Virus record (IMG/VR): IMGVR_UViG_3300022074_000158
Location: 1 to 35,942 of that record
From: a virus
DNA length: 35,942 bases
Direction: 5' to 3' (one strand)
The notes under the pieces are model-generated. The model saw only the letters and a list, made by a program, of their open reading frames with translations, was not told the DNA's origin and did no database searches. Both the position numbers and the translations under genes were made by a program. Below are positions 3,135 to 28,065 of the stretch, piece after piece. Every line of letters starts with the position of its first letter. Position 1 is the stretch's first letter.

Positions 3135-3731
3135 ATGGGATTTGATTTGTACGGACTTAATCCAAATTTTAAAAATAAAAAACCTTCCATTGATTGGGAC
3201 AAGAAACCAACAAAGGAAGAACAAGAAAAATTTTTTGCTGACTATAATAAATGGGAGAAAGAAAATCCAGGACATTATTTTAGAAATAATGTTTGGTGGT
3301 GGCGACCATTAGCAGACTTTGTTTTGTGGTTAGCTGATGAAGAGTTTTCAGAAGAAGAAAGAAAAAGATGGCACGACAACGGAGGCTTTAAAGTTAGTGA
3401 AAAAAAAGCTAACCTAATTGCTGACTTGTTAGAAATGGCTATTGAAAAAGGAATGGCAAATAAAGTGGAAGAAGAGAATAAAAGAAAAATGGCTATTGCT
3501 AGAGAACATAATAAAAAGGTTGAAGAGAAACACAAAGAATTAAAAAAAATAGTTGAAGAAAAAACTAATAAAAAAAATCTAGCTCCAGCAGAATTTCCAG
3601 AACCTTTTAAAAGCCAATGGGACGATATACAGAAAATGACAAACTACGATTCGCATTACCCTTTTAGTGTGGACAATGTAAAAGAGTTTATTATTTTTTG
3701 CAGAGCAAGTGGAGGTTTTGAAATTTGCTAG
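3135..3731 (+). CDS. Conserved MGFDLYG protein of unknown function, 198 residues
   Basis: The start MGFDLYGLNP and the later YFRNNVWWWRPLADFV are hallmarks of a conserved protein type found in phages and bacteria with no assigned activity. After the aromatic FRNNVWWWRPL block (about residues 48-60) comes a helical part with SEKKANLIADLLEMAIEKG, then a Lys/Glu-rich coiled coil (about 105-150) and a C-terminal segment including FIIFCRASGGFEIC. Members typically pair these two N-terminal motifs with a helix similar to VS...A..IA..L. The gene has its own promoter, the shared ACTAACGGAG leader and a terminator-like hairpin after its stop, so it is a self-contained transcription unit. Confidence 0.8.
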   Translation: MGFDLYGLNPNFKNKKPSIDWDKKPTKEEQEKFFADYNKWEKENPGHYFRNNVWWWRPLADFVLWLADEEFSEEERKRWHDNGGFKVSEKKANLIADLLEMAIEKGMANKVEEENKRKMAIAREHNKKVEEKHKELKKIVEEKTNKKNLAPAEFPEPFKSQWDDIQKMTNYDSHYPFSVDNVKEFIIFCRASGGFEIC

Positions 3732-5057: not shown

Positions 5058-6533
5058 ATGAAAGCAGATTTACTTACCACAGATAAACTGAGGCTCGAAG
5101 TAGAAAAGAAATGGATTCAGCACGTAAGACTGTGCCAAGATAACTTTTTATATTTTGTTAAAGAGGTCTGGCCTGATTTTATATATCGTAAAACAAGAGA
5201 CCCTAAGAAACTTGGACATCATCAAATCATAGCAAATGAATTTACAAAGATAGCTTCTGAAAGAAAAGGGAGGCTCATTATAAACATGCCCCCTAGACAT
5301 ACAAAATCAGAATTCGCTTCTGTGTATTATCCTGCTTGGATAATTGGTAAGTATCCAAAATTAAAAATTATGCAAGTATCACACAATACAGAACTTGCAG
5401 TAAGGTTCGGCTCTAAGGTTCGTAACATTATTGACTCACCAGAATATAAACAAATTTTTGGAGATGTGAAACTTCGTGAGGACTCCAAAGCAAAAGGACG
5501 ATGGGAAACTAATCAAGGTGGAGAATATTATGCAGCAGGTGTTGGAGCGTCTATCACGGGTCGTGGTGCAGATTTACTGATCATTGATGATCCACACACG
5601 GAACAAGATTCAATGTCTGATATTGCTATGGAACGTGCGTATGATTGGTACACATCAGGACCCAGACAAAGATTGCAACCTGGAGGCTCGATACTTTTAG
5701 TAATGACACGATGGGCAGAGGATGACTTGACTGGTAGATTACTCAAGGCTCAAACAGAGCCGAAAGCCGATTCCTGGCGCCAGATAAGTTTTCCTGCTAT
5801 TTTGAACTCTGGCAACCCAGTATGGCCTGAGTATTGGGCTCTAGATGAATTAGAAAAAATAAAAGCATCTGTACCGATTCGTAATTGGTCTGCACAATAT
5901 ATGCAAGAACCAACTTCAGAAGAAGGTGCGATTATAAAACGTGAATGGTGGCAACCTTGGGATGGACATGGTGTACCTAATTTGGTGCATGTTATACAAA
6001 GTTATGATACAGCGTTTAGTAAAAAAGAAACTGCTGACTATTCTGCGATAACAACGTGGGGTATTTTTTATCCAGAAGAAGGAGGAGCACCACAAGTTAT
6101 TTTGTTAGATGCTTTCCGTGGCAAGTTTGATTTTCCAGAACTCAAAGTAGTTGCATTACAACATTACAAGTATTGGGAACCTGAAAGTATTATTATAGAA
6201 CAAAAAGCAAGTGGTGAACCTTTAACACAAGAGTTTAGAAGAATGGGTATACCTGTTGTACCATTTGTACCTAGTAAGGGTAATGATAAATTTACTAGAG
6301 TAAATGCTGTAGCTCCCTTGTTTGAAAGTGGTGCTGTGTGGTTTCCATATGGAGAAAAATTTGCAGAAGACGTGATAGATGAGTGTGCTGCTTTTCCTCA
6401 TGGTGCAAACGATGACTATGTGGACAGTATGACACAGGCTATGTTAAGATATAGACAAGGCAGTTTTGTAGAACTATACTCAGATTATCTAGACAATGAA
6501 GATAGACCTCCAAAACAATATAAATATTATTGA
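5058..6533 (+). CDS. terL: Terminase large subunit, ATPase-nuclease
   Basis: The motor that pumps DNA into the prohead and cuts the concatemer. The 491 residues hold an N-terminal ATPase with the Walker A variant MPPRHTKS (77-84), Walker B LLIIDD (173-178) and a coupling motif LLVMTRW (213-219). The C-terminal RNaseH-like nuclease carries acidic residues at D317 (QSYDTAF), E381 (IIIEQKASG) and D452/D453/D456 (NDDYVDS). This resembles the psiM2-ORF9-like TerL group with its PP.H.KS loop. Length is normal and all active-site residues are present. No Shine-Dalgarno sequence precedes the ATG. The partner terS is 3.7 kb upstream, and the portal and its neighbours lie downstream. Confidence 0.95.
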   Translation: MKADLLTTDKLRLEVEKKWIQHVRLCQDNFLYFVKEVWPDFIYRKTRDPKKLGHHQIIANEFTKIASERKGRLIINMPPRHTKSEFASVYYPAWIIGKYPKLKIMQVSHNTELAVRFGSKVRNIIDSPEYKQIFGDVKLREDSKAKGRWETNQGGEYYAAGVGASITGRGADLLIIDDPHTEQDSMSDIAMERAYDWYTSGPRQRLQPGGSILLVMTRWAEDDLTGRLLKAQTEPKADSWRQISFPAILNSGNPVWPEYWALDELEKIKASVPIRNWSAQYMQEPTSEEGAIIKREWWQPWDGHGVPNLVHVIQSYDTAFSKKETADYSAITTWGIFYPEEGGAPQVILLDAFRGKFDFPELKVVALQHYKYWEPESIIIEQKASGEPLTQEFRRMGIPVVPFVPSKGNDKFTRVNAVAPLFESGAVWFPYGEKFAEDVIDECAAFPHGANDDYVDSMTQAMLRYRQGSFVELYSDYLDNEDRPPKQYKYY

Positions 6534-6540
6534 GGATAAT

Positions 6541-6654
6541 ATGATACAAAAAATCAAAAACATATTTAATAAAATTAAAAAAAGATTATTCGGTAAATTA
6601 TGTGAGTGTCTTCCTAAAAAGAAAAAAGGAAGAGGCAGACCTAAAAAGAGTTGA
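6541..6654 (+). CDS. AT-hook-like basic peptide, 37 residues
   Basis: A short ORF seven bases after terL, with GAGGA at 6532-6536 as ribosome site. The product is amphipathic and basic at the start (MIQKIKNIFNKIKKRLFGKL), has two Cys (CECLP), and ends KKKKGRGRPKKS. GRGRPKK is the core of an AT-hook, a motif that binds the minor groove of AT-rich DNA. I have seen similar tiny proteins near terminase genes in marine phages. It may help condense or handle packaged DNA, but this is inference. It overlaps the following TTG start by 4 bases. Confidence 0.65.
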   Translation: MIQKIKNIFNKIKKRLFGKLCECLPKKKKGRGRPKKS

Positions 6655-9600
6655 GTGTGGCTGAAGAAGATTCAGGTATGGGTTTTGGCACAGCTGCCTT
6701 AATAGGAGGTGGTATTGGTGCATTGGTGTTTCGTAGAAACATCGGTAAATTTGCCAAAGATTATTTCGATGACTACAAACGAGTCACGGATCCTGATGCT
6801 TTGTTAAAACAAAAAAAGAAAGCTGAAGCAGATGCAGACTTTCAAGAAGAGTATGTAAATAAATTTGGTGTTGACCCTGACGAAAGGGGCACCAATATTA
6901 TGACACAAAATAGAGACCTTGTTCCACAAGATAAAGTTGATGAGCTTGTGAACCCTGCACCTATGACACCAGGACAAGTAGCTCAACAAGAAGCAAAAAA
7001 TTTTATACAAAGAGATCAACAGATTTTAGCAGACATAAAAAGAGAAGTACAAAAGCCAGGTCAGTCGTTTACATTAGGAGGTCAATCATTTAACAATGAT
7101 TTGTATGGAGTTGGTTCTGTTTTGTATGATGCTGTTGCAAGAAAAGTACAAACTGCTAAACCTATGCCTGTATCTTTTTGGACAAAATTTTTTAAAGATA
7201 AGATACAAGTTGAGTTTACACCTTTTAACAGAAAAGTAGAAACAGTATCTAAAGATGAGATTGCTGATACAAATATTGCTAAGTTCGATAAGAAAGGTAA
7301 TTTAGTTGATGGTTACTTAAAGTATGTATCAGATATGAATATTAATAATAAGTTAGAAGATGAGATACGCATATCTCCTCTGACCATTTTAAATTTAATA
7401 AAAAAAGCTCCTGCAAATAATTTAAGAGTTATAGAATATGATTCAAGGTTTTATGCTGAAGATGCAACAGGTATGAATAATTTTGGTAAAGCCATAGTTG
7501 AGGCTCTTGAAAAAAGAGAGCCTACACTTAAAAAAACAAATCCTAATTTTGGTGATTATGCTAATGCTACTGCAACAGCTAATTCAGTATTAGGAAGCAC
7601 AAGAGTAACTTCTTTACTTAATTTGAAAAAGAAATTAGGACTTAGTACAGGAACTCTCGATACATTAAGAGGTCAAGGTTATAAAATGTCAACTGGCGCT
7701 GACTTGTTTAATAACCCTGGAGTTGGTGTAAGAGATTTAGCTTTTACTTTAAAAAAATTTAAAAAAGACGTAAACAATAATTTATTTAGTCCTGAAGGTG
7801 GAGTAGGACCAGATTTAACAACAAGCGAAAACTTTAAAGCGTTTTTTGATTTACCAGTATCATCTCTTAATTACAAAGGTAAATATAAATTAGATCCTAA
7901 TATGACAATAGGAGAGGCTATAGAAAAATATAACAAAGACTCTGTTAAGTTTAGAGATACTTTAAAAGAGATAGGAAAAACTAGCGGTGTAAATGAGGAA
8001 ACCTTAGCGATAAGAAAAGCTATTTTTGATATGACAAAATCTTATAAAGAGGTATCAAAATTAAAAAATAAATTACCTTTTACTATGTATCCAGATTATA
8101 TTCCTTATCGTTTGTACGGACCAGAAGATTATTTTGAGGCAGTCATTCATGTAGATCCTGCAACAATAAAAGGTGTAAAAAACTATGCTCCAAACTTTCA
8201 AGCAGCTCAAGGACAAGGTCATTATCATAATGATATTTTTGGTCAGCCTATTCAGGGACAAATATTACACTTGAGGGGTGGTATAAGAAAACTAGATAGT
8301 AATGCTAAAAAAGGTATTGGAGATAATGAAACTATTCTTACAGTAGATGAGATACAAGCAGACATAAATCAAAAAGTTCAGCAAGAAATAAAAAGAGAAA
8401 AAAGTAAAATGGCTAAAGATAGATTATATGCTGAACTTGATGCTTTAAGAAATGAAGAAGCTGTGCAAAGAGATTTTACAAAGTTTAAAGACGAGGGTGG
8501 TTTACAAAGATTTCAAACAGAAGAGAGAAGAAGACAAAGAAATAGAAATGCTGGTTTTGACGAAGTATTAACAGACATAGATAATATGAGTGAAGATGCA
8601 AAATTCTTAGCTTATAAAAAATTTAATTTAAGAAATTTAACTGACAAAGAATTTGGAGATTTGACATCCACAGAGTCAAGACTTTTTGGCAAACAGTTTT
8701 TATTTGATGATGATAAAGAACAAGCCATAAGAAAAAATATGTTTAACCTAGGTGATTTAAATTCTGATATGTATAAAGATAGATTACTTACTATAGCAGA
8801 TCAGATGCAAGAACTTACAGCTAAAGGTTCTGCTATGACTAGAGCTGATTTAGATAATTTAAAAAAATTAGAAATAAAATATGAGGACATTAGAGAACTA
8901 ATACCATCTGTAGATAGAAGAGATGCTAGTAAATATACCTATATGCCTTTTTATAAGAAAGAACAATGGGGTCCACTTGGTTTAAAGTATGCGATTAAGA
9001 AAGCAGCAAAAGATGGAGTAGATTGGGTGGGTGTAAATCCTTATGAGTTAGTGCATCATAGAGAGGGTCAAGTATTAGGTAATTTAGAATTTTATGGAAA
9101 CTACAGAGGAGGAGGAGACATATCTAAAAGAGTTAAAGGTTCTTTGTTACCTCGTCAAGTAGAGTATTTAGATAAGTTAGCAGAAAAAAAAGGGTTTAAA
9201 GATGCAGGAGGAGAATTTAAAAATAGTCCTGGTTATTATAAACTTTTAGCAGAAGCAGCAGAAAGACCAGTAAGAGCAAGAAAAGCTTTATCAGGTGAAT
9301 TAAATACTAGATCCGTTATAACTGAAAGAAGTGATCAAAGAAAAAAAGCCTCAGCTGAAGGAGCTACCCTACCAAACTTTTTAAAAAAATTTGCAGCTGA
9401 TTATGGCACCGAAGTTAAAACAGTTAGAGCTGCTAAATCAGATCCAGATAAACCTATCAAAATAATAAAACCAATAAAAGCAATTGACCCTGATACAGGA
9501 AAAGAGTTTAAGTATGATCAACATGTTGCTGCATTTACTAAAGATGAATATGATTCATTAATAGCAGAGTACGGATCTAAAGATAATGTTTTAAGTAAAC

Positions 9601-9794
9601 TTACTGGAGTAACAGGTCAATTAGGAGAAGCAGGAAGTGAATTTAGACCTAGAGTAGTAGAAAGAAGTCCTGGTAAATATTATTATGAAGATTATTATGA
9701 GATATATGCTTTAAAAGTAAAACCTGAATTTGGAGATGTACCTATAAAAGGATATTTTAAAGGTGGACTAGCACAAAACATATTTAAATGGTAA
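6651..9794 (+). CDS. Giant protein with an EIQAD / W..LGLK polyvalent-protein-type domain
   Basis: A 1047-residue protein with TTG as likely start (6651), overlapping the previous stop. Residues 10-27 are a Gly/Ala-rich hydrophobic segment (GFGTAALIGGGIGALVF) that could enter a membrane. Residues 490-580 hold PEDYFEAVIH, HYHNDIF, HLRGG and LTVDEIQADINQK. Residues 766-800 hold PFYKKEQWGPLGLKYAIKKA and DGVDWVGVNPYE. This order matches a domain I know from large polyvalent proteins of phages and plasmids (ENYREL, H.R, EEIQSDW, then W..L.LKR...A...G.D). Its activity is not known to me. The C-terminus ends in GYFKGGLAQNIFKW. Position between terL and portal suggests a virion or ejected protein, but that is inference. 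Confidence 0.7.
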   Translation: MSVAEEDSGMGFGTAALIGGGIGALVFRRNIGKFAKDYFDDYKRVTDPDALLKQKKKAEADADFQEEYVNKFGVDPDERGTNIMTQNRDLVPQDKVDELVNPAPMTPGQVAQQEAKNFIQRDQQILADIKREVQKPGQSFTLGGQSFNNDLYGVGSVLYDAVARKVQTAKPMPVSFWTKFFKDKIQVEFTPFNRKVETVSKDEIADTNIAKFDKKGNLVDGYLKYVSDMNINNKLEDEIRISPLTILNLIKKAPANNLRVIEYDSRFYAEDATGMNNFGKAIVEALEKREPTLKKTNPNFGDYANATATANSVLGSTRVTSLLNLKKKLGLSTGTLDTLRGQGYKMSTGADLFNNPGVGVRDLAFTLKKFKKDVNNNLFSPEGGVGPDLTTSENFKAFFDLPVSSLNYKGKYKLDPNMTIGEAIEKYNKDSVKFRDTLKEIGKTSGVNEETLAIRKAIFDMTKSYKEVSKLKNKLPFTMYPDYIPYRLYGPEDYFEAVIHVDPATIKGVKNYAPNFQAAQGQGHYHNDIFGQPIQGQILHLRGGIRKLDSNAKKGIGDNETILTVDEIQADINQKVQQEIKREKSKMAKDRLYAELDALRNEEAVQRDFTKFKDEGGLQRFQTEERRRQRNRNAGFDEVLTDIDNMSEDAKFLAYKKFNLRNLTDKEFGDLTSTESRLFGKQFLFDDDKEQAIRKNMFNLGDLNSDMYKDRLLTIADQMQELTAKGSAMTRADLDNLKKLEIKYEDIRELIPSVDRRDASKYTYMPFYKKEQWGPLGLKYAIKKAAKDGVDWVGVNPYELVHHREGQVLGNLEFYGNYRGGGDISKRVKGSLLPRQVEYLDKLAEKKGFKDAGGEFKNSPGYYKLLAEAAERPVRARKALSGELNTRSVITERSDQRKKASAEGATLPNFLKKFAADYGTEVKTVRAAKSDPDKPIKIIKPIKAIDPDTGKEFKYDQHVAAFTKDEYDSLIAEYGSKDNVLSKLTGVTGQLGEAGSEFRPRVVERSPGKYYYEDYYEIYALKVKPEFGDVPIKGYFKGGLAQNIFKW

Positions 9795-9803
9795 AGTAAT
9801 TAC

Positions 9804-10088
9804 ATGTCTAAATCAAAAAATATAGAACGTCTAAAATTTGCTCAAGAATTGTTAGAGAGAAAAAAACCACCTCGCATAGACGCTCCTGATTTGTTATCTA
9901 TAGTAGAGAGAAAAAATAGAGCAGCTAGAAGTAATGAAATGAGAAAATTGTCTATGTATCCATTACCCATAGAAGACATATCTATGAGAGAGAGAAAAAG
10001 AGCAAAAACTATATATGCAAAAAAAGGAACTTATGTAAAGTGTCCTAAGAAAAAAGAAATTAGAATTAAAAAAACAAGGCTTACATAA
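9804..10088 (+). CDS. Basic hypothetical protein, 94 residues
   Basis: A Lys/Arg-rich helical protein with the segments NIERLKFAQELLERKKPPRI and SIVERKNRAARSNEMRKLSM, then ISMRERKRAKTIYAKKG and a Lys-rich end. No Cys pair or known fold is seen apart from one Cys near the end. It sits between the giant protein and the portal with one base separating it from the portal start, so it is probably co-expressed with head genes. A DNA- or head-associated role would suit its charge, but nothing proves it. Confidence 0.65.
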   Translation: MSKSKNIERLKFAQELLERKKPPRIDAPDLLSIVERKNRAARSNEMRKLSMYPLPIEDISMRERKRAKTIYAKKGTYVKCPKKKEIRIKKTRLT

Positions 10089-10089
10089 T

Positions 10090-12486
10090 ATGGTAGAAGA
10101 TGATGAAATACTAGAAGAAGAGGTTGTTGAAACAGACGAACCTATTTCTGAAGAAGAACCTGAAATTGAGTTAGGTGAAAATAAAGAAGATGCAGTAGAC
10201 GTGCAGATACAAGAGGGTCCGGTAGAAGATATGGAGCCAGAAGAACCTGAGCAAAATTTTTATGCAAATCTTGCAGAGGAAATGGATGATACAACTTTAG
10301 CTAGATTATCTAGTGAACTTATTTCTGATTTTAAAAAAGACAAAGAGTCTAGAAGTGATTGGGAAAAGTCTTACATATCAGGATTAGATTTATTAGGTTT
10401 CAAAAATAGTGAAGATAGTAAACCATTTATGGGTGCAAGTTCTGTAACACATCCACTATTAGCAGAATCTGTAACACAATTTCAAGCACAAGCTTATAAA
10501 GAATTATTACCTGCTCAAGGTCCTGTAAGCACACAAGTAATCGGAGATGACTCAACAGAAAAAACTGAACAAGCAAATAGAGTTAAAGACTTTATGAATT
10601 ATATGATCACTGAAGTAATGGAAGAATACACTACTGACTTTGATCAATTATTATTTTATCTACCTTTAGCTGGGTCAGCTTTTAAAAAAATATATTATGA
10701 TCAAGTGTTAGATAGAGCTGTTGCAAAGTTTATACCTGCTGAAGATTTAGTAGTTCCATATTATGCAACAGATTTAAAAGACTCAGAAAGAATCACACAT
10801 GTTATTAAGATGAGTGAAAACGAAGTTTTAAAAAAACAACAAGCAGGTTTTTATAGAGACGTTGATATTTTACCCTCAAGACAAGATGATGATGAAATAC
10901 AAGATAAGTATGATGATATTGAAGGAGTTGAGGGATCTGGAGATAGAGATTATCAATTTAATATTTTAGAATTACATGTTGATTTAGACATTGATGAGTA
11001 TGCTATTGAGTCTAAAGAAAAAAATATTAAGATACCTTACATAGTTACAATAGATGAGGGTTCGCAAGAAATTTTATCAATATATAGAAACTATTCTCCA
11101 AATGATGAACTGATGACAAGAAAAGAATATTTTGTTCATTACAAATTTTTACCAGGTTTGGGTTTTTATGGGTTTGGTTTAATACACATGATTGGTGGTT
11201 TATCAAGAACTGCTACTGCTGCACTAAGACAACTATTAGATGCAGGTACTTTATCTAACTTACCTGCTGGTTTTAAGTCTAGAGGAATTAGAATTAGAGA
11301 TGATGACCAACCTTTTCAACCTGGTGAGTTCAGAGATGTTGATGCACCTGGTGGAAATATAAAGGATCAGTTTCAATTATTACCTTTTAAAGAGCCAAGT
11401 GGCACATTATTTAACTTATTAGGGTTTGTAGTGCAAGCAGGTCAAAAATTTGCTGGTACTTTAGACATGCAAACTGGCGAAGATAAGCAAAATAGAGCAG
11501 TTGGAACTACTTTAGCTCTCTTAGAGCGTGGTTCAAGAGTGATGTCAGCTATTCATAAGCGTTGTTACTACTCTATGAGGATAGAATTTAGACTTTTAGC
11601 TGAAGTTTTTGGCACTTATTTACCTCCAAGTTACCCATATGCCATAAAAGGTGCAGATAATTTTATAAAACAAGCAGATTTTGGTCCCGATGTAGACATA
11701 ATACCTGTTGCAGACCCAAATATTTTTAGTTTGTCACAAAGAATTACACTTGCGAGTCAACAATTACAGATTGCACAGTCAAATCCACAAATGCACAACT
11801 TAAGAGAGGCTTATAAACGTGTATATGAGGCTATGGGCACAAAAGACATTGATAAATTATTAAAACCTGAAAAAATACCACAACCAATAGACCCTGGAGT
11901 AGAAAATGCTGGTGCTTTAAGAATGGAAGTACCAAAAGCTTTTTATTTTCAAAATCATGACGCTCATATTGCAACTCATGTTGCTTTTCAAAAGTCAAGA
12001 ATGGTTGAAGTTAACCCAATGGTAAACGCTTTATTGACTGCACATGTTCAAGAGCACATATCTTTTAAAGCCAGAGCACAAGTTATGTTAGAAATTAAAA
12101 CAAATAGACCAGATTTAGTTGAATTAGAAAAAAGAAACTCACAAGCTTACTTAGCTGAAACAGAAAGTATGATTGCAGAACAAATTGGAGCTTTAACTGC
12201 TATGTATGTTGAGGGTGAAAGAGGTAACCAAAAACAAGATCCACTTGTAGCACTAAAAACTAAAGAATTAGATCTAAGAGCTATGGATATACAAAGAAGA
12301 GCACAAGAAAATGCTGCTGATATGCAAAGAAAAACTAATGAGTTTGAGCAAAAAATTGATTTAGAAAAAATGAAACGTGAAGATGCAGAAGAAGCTAGTA
12401 AAGAAAGAATAAGGGTAGCAGATGATAAATTAGATCTTACAGAAATGAAAATTATGAATGAAATGGAGAAACAAGATGATAGGTAA
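10090..12486 (+). CDS. Portal protein, P22-like
   Basis: The dodecameric ring at the capsid vertex through which DNA enters and leaves. The 798 residues start with a strongly acidic tail (about 1-55). The core follows with HPLLAESVTQFQAQAYKELL (about 121-140), then DFDQLLFYLPLAGSAFKKIY and a section with FLPGLGFYGFGLIHMIGGL and ALRQLLDAGTLSNLPAGFKS, all typical of P22-type portals in marine podoviruses. The last 100 residues are a charged coiled coil (REDAEEASKERIRVADDK), comparable to the barrel helix of P22 portal. Length is in the range for this type. The 3' end overlaps the next gene. Confidence 0.9.
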   Translation: MVEDDEILEEEVVETDEPISEEEPEIELGENKEDAVDVQIQEGPVEDMEPEEPEQNFYANLAEEMDDTTLARLSSELISDFKKDKESRSDWEKSYISGLDLLGFKNSEDSKPFMGASSVTHPLLAESVTQFQAQAYKELLPAQGPVSTQVIGDDSTEKTEQANRVKDFMNYMITEVMEEYTTDFDQLLFYLPLAGSAFKKIYYDQVLDRAVAKFIPAEDLVVPYYATDLKDSERITHVIKMSENEVLKKQQAGFYRDVDILPSRQDDDEIQDKYDDIEGVEGSGDRDYQFNILELHVDLDIDEYAIESKEKNIKIPYIVTIDEGSQEILSIYRNYSPNDELMTRKEYFVHYKFLPGLGFYGFGLIHMIGGLSRTATAALRQLLDAGTLSNLPAGFKSRGIRIRDDDQPFQPGEFRDVDAPGGNIKDQFQLLPFKEPSGTLFNLLGFVVQAGQKFAGTLDMQTGEDKQNRAVGTTLALLERGSRVMSAIHKRCYYSMRIEFRLLAEVFGTYLPPSYPYAIKGADNFIKQADFGPDVDIIPVADPNIFSLSQRITLASQQLQIAQSNPQMHNLREAYKRVYEAMGTKDIDKLLKPEKIPQPIDPGVENAGALRMEVPKAFYFQNHDAHIATHVAFQKSRMVEVNPMVNALLTAHVQEHISFKARAQVMLEIKTNRPDLVELEKRNSQAYLAETESMIAEQIGALTAMYVEGERGNQKQDPLVALKTKELDLRAMDIQRRAQENAADMQRKTNEFEQKIDLEKMKREDAEEASKERIRVADDKLDLTEMKIMNEMEKQDDR

Positions 12487-13074: not shown

Positions 13075-13283
13075 TGTATGATTTAGATACTTTAACTTTA
13101 ATAAAAAACCAAATAAATAAAAAATTACACGAAATTAAAGAACATCTTATTTATAGTGTAGACACAACTCAAGAACTTTACTATGCTAGAGGTAAGATCA
13201 ATGCTCTTGAAACATTGCTACAGGACTTAAAAGACCTGCAACGAAAGGAAGACGATATATATGATAATGACGAACAAACCTAA
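13071..13283 (+). CDS. Small conserved coiled-coil phage protein, 70 residues
   Basis: A helical protein with LIKNQINKKLHEIKEHLIYS, then a YYARGKINALETLLQDLKDL segment and an acidic tail. The layout (two helices around a Y..Y.RG.I.AL motif) is shared by many small phage proteins next to head genes, with no function known to me. Two ATG codons in tandem (13071 and 13074) are possible starts. The first overlaps the holin stop, which favours coupling. Its 3' end overlaps the co-chaperonin gene by 23 bases. Confidence 0.75.
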   Translation: MMYDLDTLTLIKNQINKKLHEIKEHLIYSVDTTQELYYARGKINALETLLQDLKDLQRKEDDIYDNDEQT

Positions 13284-13692
13284 ATTAATATTACCAAAAA
13301 GTAAAGAAACAAAAAAACCAAACATACCAATGACGAGCAAAGAGCGAGAAGCTTATTACAAAATGCTACCTGATCCAGTAGGATACAGAATTTTAATAAG
13401 GCCGCATGTTCCTAGTAATAAAACTGAAGGTGGAGTTTACCTGTCTGATAAAACACAAGAAACTATGGAAGTAACTACAGTAGTAGGTTTAGTTATTAAA
13501 ATGGGTCCATTGTGTTATCAGGATACAGATAAATTTCCAAGTGGTCCTTGGTGTAAAAGAGGTCAGTTTGTTATTTATGGTAGATATGCTGGAGCTAGGT
13601 TTAAAACAAAATATGGTGAGCATAGGATTTTAAACGATGACGAAATTATAGGAACTATTAAAAACCCCGAGGATGTCCTCGCACTATTTTAA
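13261..13692 (+). CDS. GroES-like co-chaperonin
   Basis: A 143-residue protein with the GroES fold signature: GYRILIRPHV (41-50) as the first strand, a mobile loop with NKTEGGVYLSDKT (53-65) in which GGVYL stands for the GroEL-binding GG(I/V).L, VVGLVIKMGP (74-83), and a late GQFVIYGRYAGARF (101-114) and HRILNDDEIIGTI (121-133). It has about 35 extra N-terminal residues compared with GroES. Phage co-chaperonins such as T4 gp31 recruit host GroEL to fold the capsid protein, and the position before scaffold and capsid fits that role. No GroEL gene is in the window. AGGAAG at 13246-13251 supports ATG 13261. Confidence 0.85.
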   Translation: MIMTNKPKLILPKSKETKKPNIPMTSKEREAYYKMLPDPVGYRILIRPHVPSNKTEGGVYLSDKTQETMEVTTVVGLVIKMGPLCYQDTDKFPSGPWCKRGQFVIYGRYAGARFKTKYGEHRILNDDEIIGTIKNPEDVLALF

Positions 13693-15713: not shown

Positions 15714-16625
15714 ATGGCTATTTCAAGATCACAACTTGTCAAAGAATTAGAGCCTGGTTTGAACGCTCTCTTTGGCTTAGAGTATAATAGGTATGAAAAC
15801 GAACATGCCGAAATTTTTCAAGCAGAATCATCTGACAGAGCTTTTGAAGAAGAAGTAATGCTAACAGGTTTCGGGTCTGCCCCAGTGAAATCAGAAGGTG
15901 CTGGAGTCACTTTTGACCAAGCGAACGAAAGTTTTACTGCAAGGTATACACACGAAACTATTGCTATGGCATTTGCTATTACTGAGGAAGCGATTGAAGA
16001 TAATCTTTATGATAGACTAGCAGGTAGATACACTAGAGCACTAGCTAGATCAATGGCAAACACTAAGCAAGTAAAAGCTGCAAACGTGTTAAATAATGCT
16101 TTTGATGCAAACTTTGCTGGTGGAGATGGAGTTGAACTTTGTTCAAGACTGCATCCATTATCTAGTGGAGGAACTTTAGCTAATGAATTAGCAACAGCTG
16201 CTGACTTATCAGAAACATCTCTTGAGCAATCAATGATTGACATTGCTGCTTTCGTAGATGAGAGAGGACTTAAAATTGCGATGCAAGGTGTTAAGTTAAT
16301 AATTCCAAAAGAATTACAATTTACTGCTGAAAGAATATTAAGATCTCCACAAAGAGTAGGTACAGCTGATAATGATATTAACGCTATGGCTTCAATGGGA
16401 ATGATTCCACAAGGTTATAGAGTTAATCATTATTTAACTGATACAGACGCTTTCTTCATTATGACTGATGCTCCAAACGGACTAAAACAGTTTGTTAGAG
16501 CACCAATTAAAACAGCTATTGAAGGAGACTTTGATACTGGTAATGTAAGATTTAAAGCAAGAGAGAGATATTCATTTGGATTCTCCGATCCTAGAGGTAT
16601 TTTTGGCTCACCTGGTGCAGCTTAA
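15714..16625 (+). CDS. Major capsid protein
   Basis: A 303-residue protein with the capsid pattern SQLVKELEPGLNALFGLEYN at the start, AFEEEVMLTGFG (about 43-54), YTHETIAMAFAITEEAIEDN (about 77-96) and LYDRLAGRYTRALARSMANT, then a GGDGVELCSRLHPL loop. The later ANDINAM-like stretch and the Phe-rich end (RYSFGFSDPRGIFGSPG) are usual for this HK97-fold group. It forms the icosahedral shell. A GGGAGG ribosome site lies at 15703-15708. The gene is followed directly by the window's clearest terminator, which ends the head transcription unit. Confidence 0.9.
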   Translation: MAISRSQLVKELEPGLNALFGLEYNRYENEHAEIFQAESSDRAFEEEVMLTGFGSAPVKSEGAGVTFDQANESFTARYTHETIAMAFAITEEAIEDNLYDRLAGRYTRALARSMANTKQVKAANVLNNAFDANFAGGDGVELCSRLHPLSSGGTLANELATAADLSETSLEQSMIDIAAFVDERGLKIAMQGVKLIIPKELQFTAERILRSPQRVGTADNDINAMASMGMIPQGYRVNHYLTDTDAFFIMTDAPNGLKQFVRAPIKTAIEGDFDTGNVRFKARERYSFGFSDPRGIFGSPGAA

Positions 16626-18648: not shown

Positions 18649-19383
18649 ATGACAAAATTATGTCCAAGAGGTAAAGCAGCTGCTAAAAGAAAATTTAAGG
18701 TTTATCCCAGTGCATATGCTAATGCGTATGCTTCAAAAATATGTGCAGGTAAGGCAAAAGATGACAAAGGTGTAAGAAGAAAAGATTTTAAAGGACCTAA
18801 ACCATCTGGTGGAGGTGGCACAGGTGCTGCTGCAAGAAGAATTAGAAAAGCAAAAAAAGGTGGATCAATGAAAGTATATAAAGCAGGCAAAGGAATGCTA
18901 TTACCTATATTTGGTTTAGCAGGTATGGCTAAATACATGTCTATGAACAGAAAGAAAAGTGGTACAGTTGCACCAAACAAAGGTGCAGTTGATCCTGTTA
19001 CAGGTCAAGGTACAAATCAAACTAACACTGGTAATGTAGAAGAGTTTGGTAAACAAGCAGTAAATACGGTGTTAAAAAATAAAATGGGTGCTAGAAAAGG
19101 TGGTATGAAAGTACAAAAAGCAGGTTTTGGTCTTATGATGTTAATGAACCAGATGAAAAAAGAAGGTAAAAAGAAAGGAAGACAACAAGCTGAAGAAGGT
19201 ATGATGCAAAATCAACAATACCAAAACTTTTTAGCTTCACAAAATAAACCTAATACAACTAATATGAGTATGGGTGGTATGGTACCTACAGCAACAGGAT
19301 CTTATATCAAACAAGATATTGACGGAGATGAGGGTTTTACTAATCCATCTGCTCAAGAGTATTATAAGGATTTATTGGATTAA
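18649..19383 (+). CDS. Cationic protein with CPRGKAAAKRKFKVYPSAYA block and GG-MKV repeats
   Basis: A 244-residue protein. The N-terminal LCPRGKAAAKRKFKVYPSAY with Cys 5, and NAYASKICAGKA with Cys 32, is a short cationic block I know from marine phages and some large DNA viruses, without assigned activity. A repeat follows: KKGGSMKVYKAGKGML, then hydrophobic IFGLAGMAKYM, and later RKGGMKVQKAGFGLMMLM. The C-terminal part has MSMGGMVP and an acidic end. The protein may be virion-internal or DNA-binding, which is inference. It has a strong AAGGAGGT ribosome site. Its stop overlaps the next ATG (TAATG). Confidence 0.7.
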   Translation: MTKLCPRGKAAAKRKFKVYPSAYANAYASKICAGKAKDDKGVRRKDFKGPKPSGGGGTGAAARRIRKAKKGGSMKVYKAGKGMLLPIFGLAGMAKYMSMNRKKSGTVAPNKGAVDPVTGQGTNQTNTGNVEEFGKQAVNTVLKNKMGARKGGMKVQKAGFGLMMLMNQMKKEGKKKGRQQAEEGMMQNQQYQNFLASQNKPNTTNMSMGGMVPTATGSYIKQDIDGDEGFTNPSAQEYYKDLLD

Positions 19384-19664
19384 TGTCTGGTTTAGACAAA
19401 TGGTTCAAGCAAAAATGGGTTGATATTGGAAGTAAAAGAGCTGATGGTTCATTTGCACCATGTGGTAGAAGTAAACAAAAAGCAGATGCAAAAAGAAAGT
19501 ACCCTAAATGTGTTCCTTTAGCAAAAGCTAGAAGAATGTCCGAGGGTCAAAGAAAAAGTGCAATTAAAAGAAAAAGAGCTAAAGCTCAAGGAGTTGGTGG
19601 TAAACCAACGAACGTGAGCACGTTTACAAAGAAATACTATGGTGGTATGATAGACATAACTTAG
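19383..19664 (+). CDS. Cationic protein of the LDKWFKQKWVDI type
   Basis: A 93-residue basic protein. It opens with SGLDKWFKQKWVDIGSK, followed by SFAPCGRSK (Cys 27) and YPKCVPLAKARRMSEGQRKS (Cys 43), then AIKRKRAKAQG. This layout (LDKWF...WVDI....G....CGR......YP.C.P......S...) recurs in marine phages and large DNA viruses, with no known function. It ends with YYGGMIDIT, again containing a GG-hydrophobic motif. It is coupled to the gene before by TAATG. Together with its neighbours it forms the run of cationic proteins. Confidence 0.7.
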   Translation: MSGLDKWFKQKWVDIGSKRADGSFAPCGRSKQKADAKRKYPKCVPLAKARRMSEGQRKSAIKRKRAKAQGVGGKPTNVSTFTKKYYGGMIDIT

Positions 19665-19673
19665 GAGAATAAA

Positions 19674-20609
19674 ATGGGCATAGAGAGAATACCTTTAGAA
19701 GAACTAGAAAAAATGAAGAAAAAAAGAATTAAGAATTTAAGAAAAAAAGGCAGAGCTGGACAACATGAAGATTTTTTGTATGAGCAAGAAGTCACACCAG
19801 CAGAGAAAAAAAGATACAAAGCTGCTGTAAAAATGGGTGATACAGAATATAAATTAGGAACTAAAGGTTATCCAAAACCAAAAGGTCCAAAATTTGGAGC
19901 ACAACCATTTAAAAAATCTGATGGTGGTATATTAGAAAAATTTAAAGCATTCTTAGCATCTGGCGAAAAGCCAAAAGGACAAATAGGCAAAGGTAGTGCT
20001 GATACGATTACAGGTAAAATAAGAGTAAGAAAATCTGTAAAAGAAAAAGAAGCTGAAGCTAGAAAAAAAGGTCAGATTAAAAAAGTTAATGGAAAAACAC
20101 AAAGATATTCAGATTTTGCTACAAAAAAGAATATCGCCACAGGAACTGTTTTTACAGGAGAACCTAGAACTATAGCTGAAGCTAAAAAAAGAGGATCTAA
20201 AACTTTTATTAATAAAAAAGGAAAAAAACTTGCTGCTGTAACAAAAGAGGAACTAGCAAAATCAGGTCTTACTTTAAGACAATATTTAAATAAACAGCAA
20301 GGGAAAACTGCTGTTGGTAGCAAAACAACTAAAGCTAAGAAAAAAGTTGATAAAGAAGCAGTAAGAAAGAAACTAGGAATAGGTAGTAATATAGCTGCTG
20401 GTGGTTCAGATTTATATATGGGTTTAAAATCAGGTGGTATGGGTAATTTAAAACCTGTTCCAGCTGGTAAAAAAGGTAAAGGTTTAAGAAAACTACCTAA
20501 ACCTGTAAGAAACAAGATGGGTTATATGTCAGGTGGTGGTGTTGCTAATGGTTTTGGTAGAGCTGCAATGAGACCTGGTAAAGATCCAAAAAGTATTTCT
20601 AAAACCTAA
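19674..20609 (+). CDS. Lys-rich protein with AAVTKEELAKSGLTLRQYLN motif
   Basis: A 311-residue, very Lys-rich protein. A low-complexity basic N-terminal two-thirds is followed by LAAVTKEELAKSGLTLRQYL (about 195-214), a block I recognise from marine phage structural regions as AAVT.E.L..SG..LR.YLN...G. Three GG motifs (SDGGILEK, KSGGMGN, MSGGGVANG) precede a GRAAMRPGKDPKS end, which resembles that of the next gene product (GRAAIRG). Its function is unknown. It overlaps the next ATG by one base (TAATG). High charge suggests nucleic-acid contact in the head or a scaffolding use, which is inference. Confidence 0.65.
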   Translation: MGIERIPLEELEKMKKKRIKNLRKKGRAGQHEDFLYEQEVTPAEKKRYKAAVKMGDTEYKLGTKGYPKPKGPKFGAQPFKKSDGGILEKFKAFLASGEKPKGQIGKGSADTITGKIRVRKSVKEKEAEARKKGQIKKVNGKTQRYSDFATKKNIATGTVFTGEPRTIAEAKKRGSKTFINKKGKKLAAVTKEELAKSGLTLRQYLNKQQGKTAVGSKTTKAKKKVDKEAVRKKLGIGSNIAAGGSDLYMGLKSGGMGNLKPVPAGKKGKGLRKLPKPVRNKMGYMSGGGVANGFGRAAMRPGKDPKSISKT

Positions 20610-21232
20610 TGCCTAAACCTATAAGAAAATTTAAAAGAAAAGGTATAATGGTTTCTCCTGTGTTTCCAAAGGGATTTCAAGATTTTTCGTATGATAAAAT
20701 GCGTAAAGCTAATCCTTTACCAAAGTTAACTCCTAAACAAAAAAAAATAAATAAAATGATGCAGGAGTATAGAAGAAAACAATCTTTAGAAAGAGATCCA
20801 AGTGGTTTTACTCAATTATTAAACGAAGGCGGTATGCCTGAAAGTAGAATAATTTTACCAAAAAGAAAAACAATAGTTAAACCAGAAGTTTTCAAAGAAA
20901 AAAGTGATACAGGAGTAACAAAAAAGGGCAGTAAAGTTACTGTCGGTAAAAAAATATTAGGAGTTGATGTAATAGGACAAGTGGCTCAACAAAAATATTC
21001 CTCTCCGAGAGGAGAAAGTAAAAGAAGAACTAAAAGTTTTACTGCTCAAAAAAACTTTGGAGATAGAGGTAGTTTTGGTATAGAAGCTTACGATAGCACA
21101 TCTAGTAATCCTATGAATAGGTCAAAAACAAAAGGAATAAAAGGTTCACTCACACTTACTTTTTCTGAAGGTGGTATAGCACGAGGTGGTAGAGCTGCAA
21201 TTCGTGGAATAAAATTTACAGGTGTTAAGTAA
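20609..21232 (+). CDS. Basic protein ending in GGIARGGRAAIRGIKFTGVK
   Basis: A 207-residue basic protein. The N-terminal 60 residues are Lys/Pro-rich (PLPKLTPKQKKINKMMQEYR). The C-terminal half looks beta-rich (a KKILGVDVIGQVAQQKY stretch and GIKGSLTLTF). It ends SEGGIARGGRAAIRGIKFTG plus VK. The ending KF.GVK is shared with the 62-residue protein at 12476-12664, and GG(I/V)A.G.GRAA(I/M)R with the gene before. I do not recognise the fold of the middle part. Its stop overlaps the gp4-like gene by one base, so it is linked to the neck proteins. Confidence 0.65.
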   Translation: MPKPIRKFKRKGIMVSPVFPKGFQDFSYDKMRKANPLPKLTPKQKKINKMMQEYRRKQSLERDPSGFTQLLNEGGMPESRIILPKRKTIVKPEVFKEKSDTGVTKKGSKVTVGKKILGVDVIGQVAQQKYSSPRGESKRRTKSFTAQKNFGDRGSFGIEAYDSTSSNPMNRSKTKGIKGSLTLTFSEGGIARGGRAAIRGIKFTGVK

Positions 21233-25441: not shown

Positions 25442-26236
25442 GTGCCAGTTCAAGGTCAATTTTTTCAAAAGTCTGCAAGTGATACTGGGTTTTACTCTTA
25501 TCAAATCGAACAAAGCATGGTTCAAAATCATGGTACAGCAGCTTATTTAAGTAGAACACTTGGAACAGCCACAAGTAGAGATACTTTTACAATTAGTTTA
25601 TGGGTGAAAAGACATACTGAATTAGACAGTAGTTCAAAAACAACAATTTTTACTGGTGGCACAAGTGGTAGCCAATATTCTTTTACTGGTTTTGGTAATG
25701 ACAATGCAATACAAATGGATTTACAAACTACTATGGGAAGTACTGGTTCAACTGATCAACAGTTTGAAGACTTTAGTGCTTGGTATCATTTGTTGTATAG
25801 ATTTGATACTTCACAATCAACACAAGACGATAGAATTAGAGTGTATGTTAATGGAACACAATTGACAGGATTTAATTTAGGTAACGTATCACAAGATGAA
25901 GATGTGCCACATTGGAATGCAGCTGAAGCATTTTATATAGGACAAAAAAACGGAATAGGTCACGCATCTGATGGTACTAATTTATATTACGCAGAGTTTT
26001 TATTTTTTGATGGACAATCTTATGCTCCGACTGAGGTCGCTCAAAGTAAGAACGGAATTTGGATTCCAAAGAATCCGAGTGGTTTATCATTTGGTAATAA
26101 TGGGTTCCATCTGAGATTTGCCGAGGGAGCTATTGGTACAGATAGCAGTGGAAATGGAAATGATTTTTCTGCTACTAATATAGATAATGATAATATTACA
26201 TTAGATTCACCAACCAACGGAGCAGGAAGTACATAA
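25442..26236 (+). CDS. Tail fibre, LamG/concanavalin-like part
   Basis: A 264-residue protein with GTG start at 25442 and GGAGAT upstream. TSRDTFTISLWVKRHTEL, a YHLLYRFDTSQSTQDDRIRV stretch with VYVNGTQLT, and later YAEFLFFDGQSYAPTEVA, show a LamG-like beta sandwich that often binds sugars. The end includes GNDFSATNIDNDNITLDSPT. In the fibres I know of this type, DSPTN is followed in the same chain by NF...NPL, the start of an SPRY-like domain. Here that part is the next ORF, joined by TAATG. So the fibre looks split into two polypeptides. Host recognition is the likely job. Confidence 0.75.
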   Translation: MPVQGQFFQKSASDTGFYSYQIEQSMVQNHGTAAYLSRTLGTATSRDTFTISLWVKRHTELDSSSKTTIFTGGTSGSQYSFTGFGNDNAIQMDLQTTMGSTGSTDQQFEDFSAWYHLLYRFDTSQSTQDDRIRVYVNGTQLTGFNLGNVSQDEDVPHWNAAEAFYIGQKNGIGHASDGTNLYYAEFLFFDGQSYAPTEVAQSKNGIWIPKNPSGLSFGNNGFHLRFAEGAIGTDSSGNGNDFSATNIDNDNITLDSPTNGAGST

Positions 26237-28065
26237 TGACAACTAATTCAAATTTTTGTGTTTTAAATCCATTAGGACAACAAGCTGGTTCAACTGATGT
26301 GTCAAATAGGCAAAATGGTTTTACTGGCAGTAATTTAAAATATACTAATATCAGTAATGAAACCACATTAGGAACTTTTGGAGTTACTTCTGGTAAATGG
26401 TATTTTGAAGTTTACGTAAACAATTTTAATTCTGATAATGGTATGATTATAGGTTGGTGTAATGACTTTTTTAATATAGATACAGAGTTAGGATATAACA
26501 ATATTACACAACCAAGTGGAGCACAAGCATTTGGATTATATTCACAAAATCAAACATGTTTATATGGGCCTGGAAATGGCAGTAGCTCTTATAATAAAAG
26601 TTATGGTAGTGGTACTCCTACTAACGGAGATATAATAAGAATTTGGTTAGATGCAGATAATGGTAGATTTTGGGGTGGATTAAATGGAACAATACATAAT
26701 TCTGGCGATCCTTCTGCTGGTACTAATTGGGGGTTTGGCACTGGAGGTTCTCCACACAATGTAGCTATGACAACACGAAGATTATTTCCAGCCATAGGTA
26801 ATTGGTCTGCTGCTGATGCTGAAGTCACATTTAATTTTGGACAAGATAGTACATTTCTCGGAGCAACTACCGCTGGTACAGAAGTGGATGGAAATGGCAG
26901 GGGTTCGTTCAAATACTCTACAGAGGGGTTTTTAGCCTTATGTTCAGCTAATTTACCAGTTGCTGATGCTATTAGTCCAGCAGAAACTGATGATGATTAT
27001 GTTGGTGGTAAACAATTTGGTATCGTACAATACACAGGTAACTCTACAACAGGACAGTCAATAACAGGATTAGGCTTCAAGCCTGATGTTATCTGGGCAA
27101 AGTGTAGTAGTCATTCCCAAAATAATCAATTATTTCATTCACAAGTTTTAAATAGTAGAAGTCCAACTCCTACTCCATTTATGTTTCAAATGGATACAAC
27201 CTCTCGTATCGATGATACGGCACAAGGTAATAATAATCCTATGATTTCAAGTTTTGATTCTGATGGTTTTACATTAGGCACAAGTGGAAGTGGACCTAAC
27301 GATAACGGAAGAACTTATGTTGCTTGGTGTTGGAGAGCAAAAGCTGCAACAACAGTAACAAACAATGATGGTGCTAGAGAATCAACTATACAAGTAAATT
27401 CTGATATAGGGTTTAGTACAGGAACGTATACAGGAAATTTATCTGGATCTGGTACAGCTACAGTAGGACATGGTTTGGGTAAAGCTCCAGAACTAATCAT
27501 AAGTATGAGATCAGATGGTAACAGCCAAAGAATTTATAGACACGTTGGTTTAGATGATCAAAATTATGTATTACAAGTTGAAACTACTGGATCTCAAACA
27601 AGCAAATCAGGAAATGGCAGTATGTCGGCAGTTAGTGCGACTACCTTTGATACTAATTATACGGATGGATTAAATACAAATGGACATACTTTTATATTTA
27701 TGGCTTGGACATCAATACCAGGTTTCTCAGCTTTTGGTCGGTATCATGGAAACTCCAATGCAAATGGTGTGTACATACATACTGGCTTTCGCCCAAAATT
27801 AGTACAGCTACGAAGAATAGATGGTAGTGGTTCGTTCTTAGTATCTGATGCATTAAGAAGACCATTCAATGATGGTACACATAGAGAACTATATTGGAAT
27901 AGTACAAGTGCAGAAGCTACTGGAGCAGATAGTCACGATGGTGTAGATTATTTTGCTAATGGTTTTAGACTAAAAGGAACTAATGCTGGTTGTAATGGTA
28001 GTGGTAGTGAGTATGTCTACTCTGCTTGGGCAGAAAGTCCGTTCAAATTTCCCAATGCTTTTTAA
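26236..28065 (+). CDS. Tail fibre, SPRY-like and distal part
   Basis: A 609-residue protein starting MTTNSNFCVLNPLGQQ, where homologous fibres continue from the LamG-like domain. SGKWYFEVYVNN, a GWCNDFF segment and GDIIRIWLDADNGRFWGGLN match an SPRY/B30.2-like sandwich (about 50-215). From about 250 FGIVQYTGNSTTGQSITGLG and FKPDVIWAKC begin a second beta module found in many marine fibres, with HGLGKAPELIISMRS as a second copy of the GLG..P...I...R theme. The third, FAFGRYHGN-like (GFSAFGRYHGNSNANG, then TGFRPKLVQLRR), is another copy. It probably trimerises and binds host surface sugars. It overlaps the preceding gene by one base. Confidence 0.75.
   Translation: MTTNSNFCVLNPLGQQAGSTDVSNRQNGFTGSNLKYTNISNETTLGTFGVTSGKWYFEVYVNNFNSDNGMIIGWCNDFFNIDTELGYNNITQPSGAQAFGLYSQNQTCLYGPGNGSSSYNKSYGSGTPTNGDIIRIWLDADNGRFWGGLNGTIHNSGDPSAGTNWGFGTGGSPHNVAMTTRRLFPAIGNWSAADAEVTFNFGQDSTFLGATTAGTEVDGNGRGSFKYSTEGFLALCSANLPVADAISPAETDDDYVGGKQFGIVQYTGNSTTGQSITGLGFKPDVIWAKCSSHSQNNQLFHSQVLNSRSPTPTPFMFQMDTTSRIDDTAQGNNNPMISSFDSDGFTLGTSGSGPNDNGRTYVAWCWRAKAATTVTNNDGARESTIQVNSDIGFSTGTYTGNLSGSGTATVGHGLGKAPELIISMRSDGNSQRIYRHVGLDDQNYVLQVETTGSQTSKSGNGSMSAVSATTFDTNYTDGLNTNGHTFIFMAWTSIPGFSAFGRYHGNSNANGVYIHTGFRPKLVQLRRIDGSGSFLVSDALRRPFNDGTHRELYWNSTSAEATGADSHDGVDYFANGFRLKGTNAGCNGSGSEYVYSAWAESPFKFPNAF

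Follow-up and report, generated by a model that had tools for sequence, protein, structure and literature searches.

A gene between terL and portal of marine phages encodes an EIQ[S/A]D domain with a predicted GNAT-like fold

We analysed a stretch of viral DNA of 35,942 nucleotides (IMG/VR record IMGVR_UViG_3300022074_000158, positions 1 to 35,942; hereafter the window), and focused on the gene located between those of the terminase large subunit (terL) and of the portal protein (table 1). An earlier note on this DNA had described the product of this open reading frame (ORF) as having a hydrophobic N-terminus rich in Gly and Ala, and a series of motifs ordered as in a domain of large polyvalent proteins. 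We call the latter the EIQ[S/A]D domain, a name coined in this analysis. The motifs are all present in the quoted order within the ORF at 6651-9794: PEDYFEAVIH is at residue 491, HLRGG at 540, LTVDEIQADINQK at 563, GLKYAIKKAA at 777 and GVDWVG at 789. The length given in the note, 1047 residues, holds for the ORF. The likelier start is the GTG at 6657, which yields a protein of 1045 amino acids (aa) beginning with MAEEDSG..., and which we favour because aligned relatives (e.g. the one at locus L139) begin with MAYEEDSG... The hydrophobic segment is also real, with a mean Kyte-Doolittle value of 1.59 at residues 9-27 against a maximum of 0.53 beyond residue 60. A hydrophobic N-terminus (19-residue mean of at least 1.2) is found in 19 of the 23 members with complete N-termini.

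Table 1. The EIQAD-domain gene, the parts of its product and the surrounding structural genes (positions in the window; invariance counted over 25 members).
Feature	Positions	Strand	Details
Terminase large subunit (terL)	5058..6533	+	PF17289 E 4.5e-10, phrog_38 E 1.9e-118
EIQAD-domain gene	6651..9794	+	1047 codons, TTG start; likely start GTG 6657
Gly/Ala-rich hydrophobic N-terminal segment	6675..6731	+	residues 9-27, Kyte-Doolittle mean 1.59
N-terminal helical module and probable strand 1	7077..7442	+	residues 143-264, ending LRVIEYD; strand at model residues 119-125
YRLYGPEDYFEAVIHVDP strand with invariant E496	8106..8159	+	residues 486-503
Invariant H524	8220..8222	+	25/25 members
QILHLRGGIRKL strand with invariant R542	8259..8294	+	residues 537-548; 25/25; strand at model residues 398-409
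LTVDEIQADINQK, strand 4 and turn	8337..8375	+	residues 563-575; E567, Q569, D571 each 25/25; model strand 422-430
P766 - WGPLGLKYAIKKAA - WVGVN, helix 3 and strand 5	8946..9029	+	residues 766-793; P766 25/25; model helix 631-648, model strand 653-656
GNLEFYG, start of last long helix region	9078..9098	+	residues 810-816; Y815, G816 25/25
C-terminal tail GGLAQNIFKW	9762..9791	+	residues 1038-1047; G1038, G1039, F1045 25/25
Small basic protein, function not assigned	9804..10088	+	94 aa; ORF at same place in 23/23 loci
Portal protein	10090..12486	+	phrog_1216 E 5.7e-48
GroES-like co-chaperonin	13261..13692	+	phrog_3188 E 2.8e-16
Major capsid protein	15714..16625	+	phrog_371 E 4.7e-19

The association of the gene with terL and portal is conserved. 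We found 43 loci carrying the gene by its motif and counted neighbours only where the flank was long enough (26, 35 and 20 of the 43): terL lies upstream in 26/26 and portal downstream in 35/35. We also sampled relatives by their portal, keeping 80 of 90. Both terL and portal were present in 43 of these loci, 38 of which have the gene between them; the other 37 were left uncounted because terL or portal was not found or the frames overlapped too far. Some contigs recur under several locus numbers and the loci are not all independent. The ratio of non-synonymous to synonymous substitution rates (dN/dS) of the gene ranges from 0.08 to 0.39 (6 pairs), against 0.045-0.06 for portal (3 pairs) and 0.03 for terL (2 pairs). 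The gene is thus under purifying selection, yet evolves faster than portal and terL. In two loci, L260 and L200 (4848-7206), it is split in two ORFs (506 + 283 and 314 + 454 codons). One of these carriers is a viral contig and the other a contig binned as Maricaulis, and the split may be a real break or an assembly error.

The window protein matched no model in Pfam, PHROG or NCBIfam (best PHROG E-value 0.59). Searching phages by tblastn gave no match for the whole protein, nor for the homologue at L013. A single-sequence search of viral contigs returned one identical fragment only, and the matches among PDB sequences were at chance level. A match to an Arthrobacter phage (E = 2), located in a connector region, was put down to chance. 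We then searched viral sequences with a degenerate nucleotide pattern that covers [DE]EIQADx[NH]Q and obtained 14 loci. Relatives of the window protein are among them (L003, L004, L006, L013, L016), as are a second branch (L007, L010-L012, L014, L015) and one chance match in an ORF of 116 aa (L008). The L014 form of the second branch has 1483 aa and directly precedes a phrog_1216 portal. A third, classical branch is defined by the pattern EIQSDWHQ, present in at least 120 contigs of metagenomic phages. Isolates seldom carry the domain: with one classical query, matches were obtained in 5 of 50,697 phage records.

We aligned 84 classical members out of 89 non-redundant candidates, with L037 shortened; the five left out (L125, L005, L033, L007 and L011) were very long, N-terminally cut or from the second branch. 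In Pfam and NCBIfam scans of the 84 members, no model covers the EIQ[S/A]D domain. The matches to GNAT models in these scans were discounted, being restricted to one member, L082 (2279-4381), where a GNAT-like stretch with an RGKGIG loop is fused upstream of the domain. One PHROG family, phrog_7348, matches 79 of the 84 EIQSD-domain segments. Its label, 'endolysin', is misleading for this domain, and annotation pipelines will mislabel such proteins.

Profile comparison reveals that the likeness noted earlier between the window protein and the polyvalent-protein domain is not due to chance. The portal-selected relatives aligned with the classical family in hhalign with a probability of 99.6 (E = 1.5e-24), and of 99.2 (E = 6e-20) when the EIQ motif was masked. 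The motif-selected relatives gave 99.1 (E = 9e-19), or 98.4 (E = 5.6e-15) with the motif masked, while the controls for this set (one reversed and four column-shuffled profiles) never exceeded 0.2. A divergent EIQ[S/A]D domain makes up the C-terminal 790 residues or so of the window protein (about 255-1047). A weaker candidate in the window, the ORF at 3135-3731 (classical profile E = 0.024), was dropped as a family member, as it lacks Pfam support. The domain does occur in large polyvalent proteins, since three of the four relatives scanned have it fused to known polyvalent domains: LPD37, LPD39 and InPase in L119, LPD38 in L108 and ART-PolyVal in L039, the fourth (L107) having no such neighbour. 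It is also found in a protein of a Pseudomonas plasmid, named LPD23-containing, in a 'lysin' gene some 12 kb long of a Nostoc phage, and in an uncultured phage (L206) two genes after the portal. In the window protein itself, no second polyvalent domain was recognised by the Pfam scan, and we hence class it as a solo version of the domain and not as a polyvalent protein.

Members of the family present E, H, R, E-x-Q-x-D, P and Y in this order, and all are found in the window protein. We assessed conservation in 25 non-redundant members: the window protein and 24 portal-selected ones, the latter drawn from 51 ORFs of at least 450 aa. E496, H524, R542, E567, Q569, D571, P766, Y815 and G816 are invariant, whereas position 568 varies between I, V, M, A and L, and position 570 is mostly S instead of A. 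The N-terminal module has its own invariant positions (G143, G155, W177, E203, D206, G221, L223 and P254), and by eye its counterpart in the classical family is the FYS..GVK..TK.E module. The classical counterparts that lie outside the search pattern are nearly or fully constant: E161 in 83 of 84 members, H183 and R195 in 82, P239 and Y367 in all 84. The match between Y815 and Y367 depends on how we read the alignments. In terms of predicted secondary structure, the invariant residues are located where strand 4 ends, ahead of helix 3 and close to where the last long helix starts. These are the regions that surround the active site in GNATs.

We predicted the structure of L037, a compact classical member, with AlphaFold using the 84-row alignment (predicted local distance difference test, pLDDT, 88.0; predicted template modelling score, pTM, 0.80). 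The 50 matches listed for this model in VIA-align, with Z from 9.9 to 7.4, were all read as GNAT folds, mostly from their entry titles; ICL2/Rv1916, AtaT, KacT, TacT, GmvT and LasI, in particular, we take to be such. For models lacking a clear match, the stated baseline of this tool is a Z of 7-8 for the best entry and of 4-5 at rank 50. The closest structures were the C-terminal domain of Mycobacterium tuberculosis ICL2 and Rv1916 (9obo, 6edw, 6ee1 and 8g8k; Z 9.9-9.0), which differ from the model in not being phage proteins and share 11-12% identity with it. For example, 143 of 162 residues align with chain 8g8k at 3.6 Å (Z 9.7). Two ICL2 entries among the top matches have acetyl-CoA (CoA, coenzyme A) bound. 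The matches listed by Foldseek for L037 also include GNATs, at probabilities up to 0.96. Among predicted viral structures, the 27 matches with E-values of at most 0.001 are to large phage proteins, most of them uncharacterised. The entries that come next often are small phage acetyltransferases, with unrelated PCNA entries in between. In the model of the window protein (residues 140-1047, from 28 aligned rows), strands and helices are arranged around the motifs as in the model of L037, and KKT23, NatD, ICL2, Rv1916 and AtaT lead its VIA-align matches with Z of 5.6-5.0. We thus consider a GNAT-like fold quite likely for the EIQ[S/A]D domain. The prediction has good support at the level of the family and is extended to the window protein mainly through homology: the relative matches GNAT folds well, the window protein's own model only weakly. 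The note had given the domain no function. This is now narrowed to a predicted GNAT-like fold with an enzyme-like set of invariant residues.

The reading we prefer, to which we grant slightly less than an even chance, is that the gene encodes a virion-carried GNAT-fold transferase of HTVC023P-like marine phages. The product, near-constant in this lineage and encoded between terL and portal, would adopt a beta-alpha-beta fold of GNAT-like type, into which three large and mostly helical segments are inserted. It would be a transferase-type enzyme in which E567 (where strand 4 ends) and Y815 (at the last long helix or ahead of it) serve as base and acid, with E496, H524, R542, Q569 and D571 lining the active site. 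As the note had suggested for a virion-carried and injected protein, it may be carried in the head and leave through the portal, with the Gly/Ala hydrophobic N-terminus aiding docking or passage across the membrane. It would then modify a host protein, a tRNA or nucleic acid early in infection. Considered separately, an enzymatic role is likely, and carriage in the virion is just as likely. Acyl-CoA as the donor is a more tentative proposal, somewhat on the doubtful side; the donor may be another molecule because the canonical CoA loop is missing.

In favour of this reading, gp34 (QPZ53416.1) of the cultured pelagiphage HTVC028P has the same domain (classical profile E = 1.2e-39) and is encoded in what is annotated as a cassette of internal virion proteins. 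HTVC028P is a marine phage of SAR11 hosts, gp34 lies in its structural region, and all eight invariant positions are recognisable by eye. There are also differences: gp34 has 954 aa, MQSD replaces IQAD, the gene is devoid of annotation, and it is located between 'internal protein A'/gp35 and gp33, a 'putative internal virion protein', rather than between terL and portal. Another gene of this cassette, gp37 (L017, 3577-4038), is annotated as a 'putative acetyltransferase' and has no Pfam match.

There are precedents for such a protein in the literature. Polyvalent proteins are predicted to be injected, and Iyer et al. 2017 describe two RimI-like GNAT families among them (PMC5512222); GNATs and ARTs have been described in injected polyvalent proteins (PMC5512222, PMC7824862). 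EIQSD proteins share with those of Iyer et al. the fusions to LPD37/38/39, InPase and ART-PolyVal, but differ from their RimI-like GNATs in having no CoA loop. The main text of that article does not mention EIQSD. We did not find the domain named in the literature searched, which left out most subscription papers and the supplement of Iyer et al. The Rac N-acetyltransferase of phiKMV-like phages is described as modifying the alpha subunit of the host RNA polymerase (PMC7824862, PMC10504331). It is a precedent by function alone, and is not described there as carried in virions. Mom, which acts on DNA, is another precedent for what such an enzyme can do (PMC7824862).

Several observations weigh against a virion-carried transferase. 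The canonical CoA loop, Q/RxxGxG/A before helix 3, is found in none of the 84 classical members, and none was seen by eye in the alignment of the window clade. The family had no significant hhalign match to ten canonical GNATs (probabilities 0.45 and 0.12; these ten were kept out of 13 GNAT ORFs tried, from 18 matches), whereas one half of the GNATs against the other, the positive comparison, scored 68. It had no match among PDB sequences either, which argues against a plain GNAT label. We therefore speak of a GNAT-like fold and not of a proven GNAT, given the missing loop and the lack of a GNAT sequence-profile match. The best Foldseek E-value of L037 was 2e-3, with none at or below 0.001. 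The model of the window protein is of low confidence (pLDDT 64.5, pTM 0.60): unrelated helical proteins reach the same Z as GNATs, which makes its support weak, and Foldseek returned nothing useful for it. The place of the invariant residues is read from secondary structure. Finally, the gene is dispensable in some relatives, because 5 of the 43 portal-selected loci lack it (two have the small protein only and three a 179-aa ORF). Among cultured relatives, HTVC023P has only a 201-aa protein in the slot between terL and portal, and HTVC027P has other genes there, coding for proteins of 483 and 892 aa.

Some of these observations would also fit a GNAT-like part of the head or of the portal vertex that has no catalytic role and acts in the inner core, ejection or assembly, since GNAT-like folds also serve as structural elements or acyl-CoA sensors. 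The top structural matches are to the C-terminal domain of ICL2, which we take to be a regulatory, non-catalytic, acyl-CoA-binding GNAT-like domain, and the phage shell protein chimallin matches the model of the window protein (Z 4.6). The gene is beside portal in nearly every relative and the domain has no CoA loop. Yet all 25 diverse members, and the classical family, keep the same eight polar or functional residues, which is more than a scaffold needs, and the domain also occurs away from portals and in giant proteins with the enzymatic ART-PolyVal and InPase. We regard this explanation as unlikely, though it deserves serious consideration. The gene order (terL, EIQ gene, small protein, portal) suits packaging or maturation as well as cargo, and Mom-type GNATs are described that acylate DNA adenine in phages (PMC7824862). 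Hence, a GNAT-fold enzyme could remain unpackaged and act in the producing cell, modifying phage DNA in a Mom-like manner or a head protein during assembly. This we consider improbable, on three indirect grounds: the conservation of a hydrophobic N-terminus (19 of 23 members), the position of the HTVC028P homologue among internal virion proteins, and the predicted injection of polyvalent relatives (PMC5512222). The protein might also be a different enzyme, e.g. a nuclease with an E-x-Q site, whose arrangement is only superficially GNAT-like. E-x-Q-x-D on a strand that follows acidic residues is reminiscent of PD-(D/E)xK-like sites, and the Foldseek E-values are marginal. This is very unlikely when all of the best 50 VIA-align matches of L037 read as one fold class, above the stated baseline of the tool; that nuclease or other folds are not among the matches listed for L037 by VIA-align and Foldseek carries no evidential weight.

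The structural genes of the window (terL, portal, GroES, a scaffold-like gene and capsid) are collinear with those of HTVC023P, and the portals are 62% identical. By these genes, the window phage is assigned to an HTVC023P-like marine lineage. The same structural genes are also common to the Roseobacter phages CRP-901/902 and DSL-LC04, and SAR11 is for this reason only a possible host. The content of the slot between terL and portal differs among these phages: DSL-LC04 has a PcfJ-like protein in it, while CRP-902 and Caulobacter phage RW have no protein gene there. In related phages, the slot of L203 (3421-5898) encodes a PcfJ-like protein (PF14284, E = 5e-9) and that of L202 (1639-5770) the two uncharacterised proteins of 483 and 892 aa. 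The slot is perhaps an exchange site for delivered proteins. The idea that the 201-aa protein of HTVC023P is another cargo, sharing an N-terminal signal, was dropped because by eye this protein resembles the small portal-side protein. The latter has a conserved C-terminal tail in the window (9804-10088) and in 22 further loci, in the form KG.[YF]V.VK.K[LI]GR.KKTR[IV][TY] or KMIKARGGKMVNLKPTKLY. The KMIKARGGKMVNLKPTKLY form resembles gp30 of HTVC023P, encoded directly between terL and portal where there is no EIQ gene, and the small protein is also present in two loci lacking the EIQ gene (L263 and L264). Across the family of the window protein, a Gly-Gly-[LFM] tail is constantly present close to the C-terminus (GG in 25/25), and GG motifs occur at or near the ends of other proteins of the structural region, including the ORFs at 19383-19664 and 20609-21232. 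Further downstream, positions 26236-28065 encode a probable tail-fibre or virion protein, with DUF7483 (E = 1.4e-75) and a SPRY-like match below the curated cut-off.

The boldest interpretation, which we hold to be a long shot, is that EIQ[S/A]D is a new class of GNAT-fold enzymes with its own active site and no canonical CoA loop, and that HTVC023P-like marine phages release a solo version of it from their virions when infection begins, so as to halt or redirect translation or transcription in the host. The active site would consist of E, H, R, E-x-Q-x-D and Y, and the donor would perhaps be an acyl carrier or an aminoacyl-tRNA. Infection by HTVC027P or HTVC031P can leave SAR11 cells with no detectable rRNA (PMC11066056). 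If true, this interpretation would make the enzyme a possible contributor, among others, to the ribosome-deprived state that is reported for SAR11 cells infected by pelagiphages. The loss of rRNA motivates it and does not support it, because HTVC027P has no recognised copy of the domain in the slot. Metagenomic phages commonly carry the EIQ[S/A]D domain, yet it is rare in isolates and devoid of a Pfam or NCBIfam model. With the predicted fold and the eight constant residues, a polyvalent domain so far uncharacterised becomes the subject of an enzyme hypothesis, which may be tested by named point changes.

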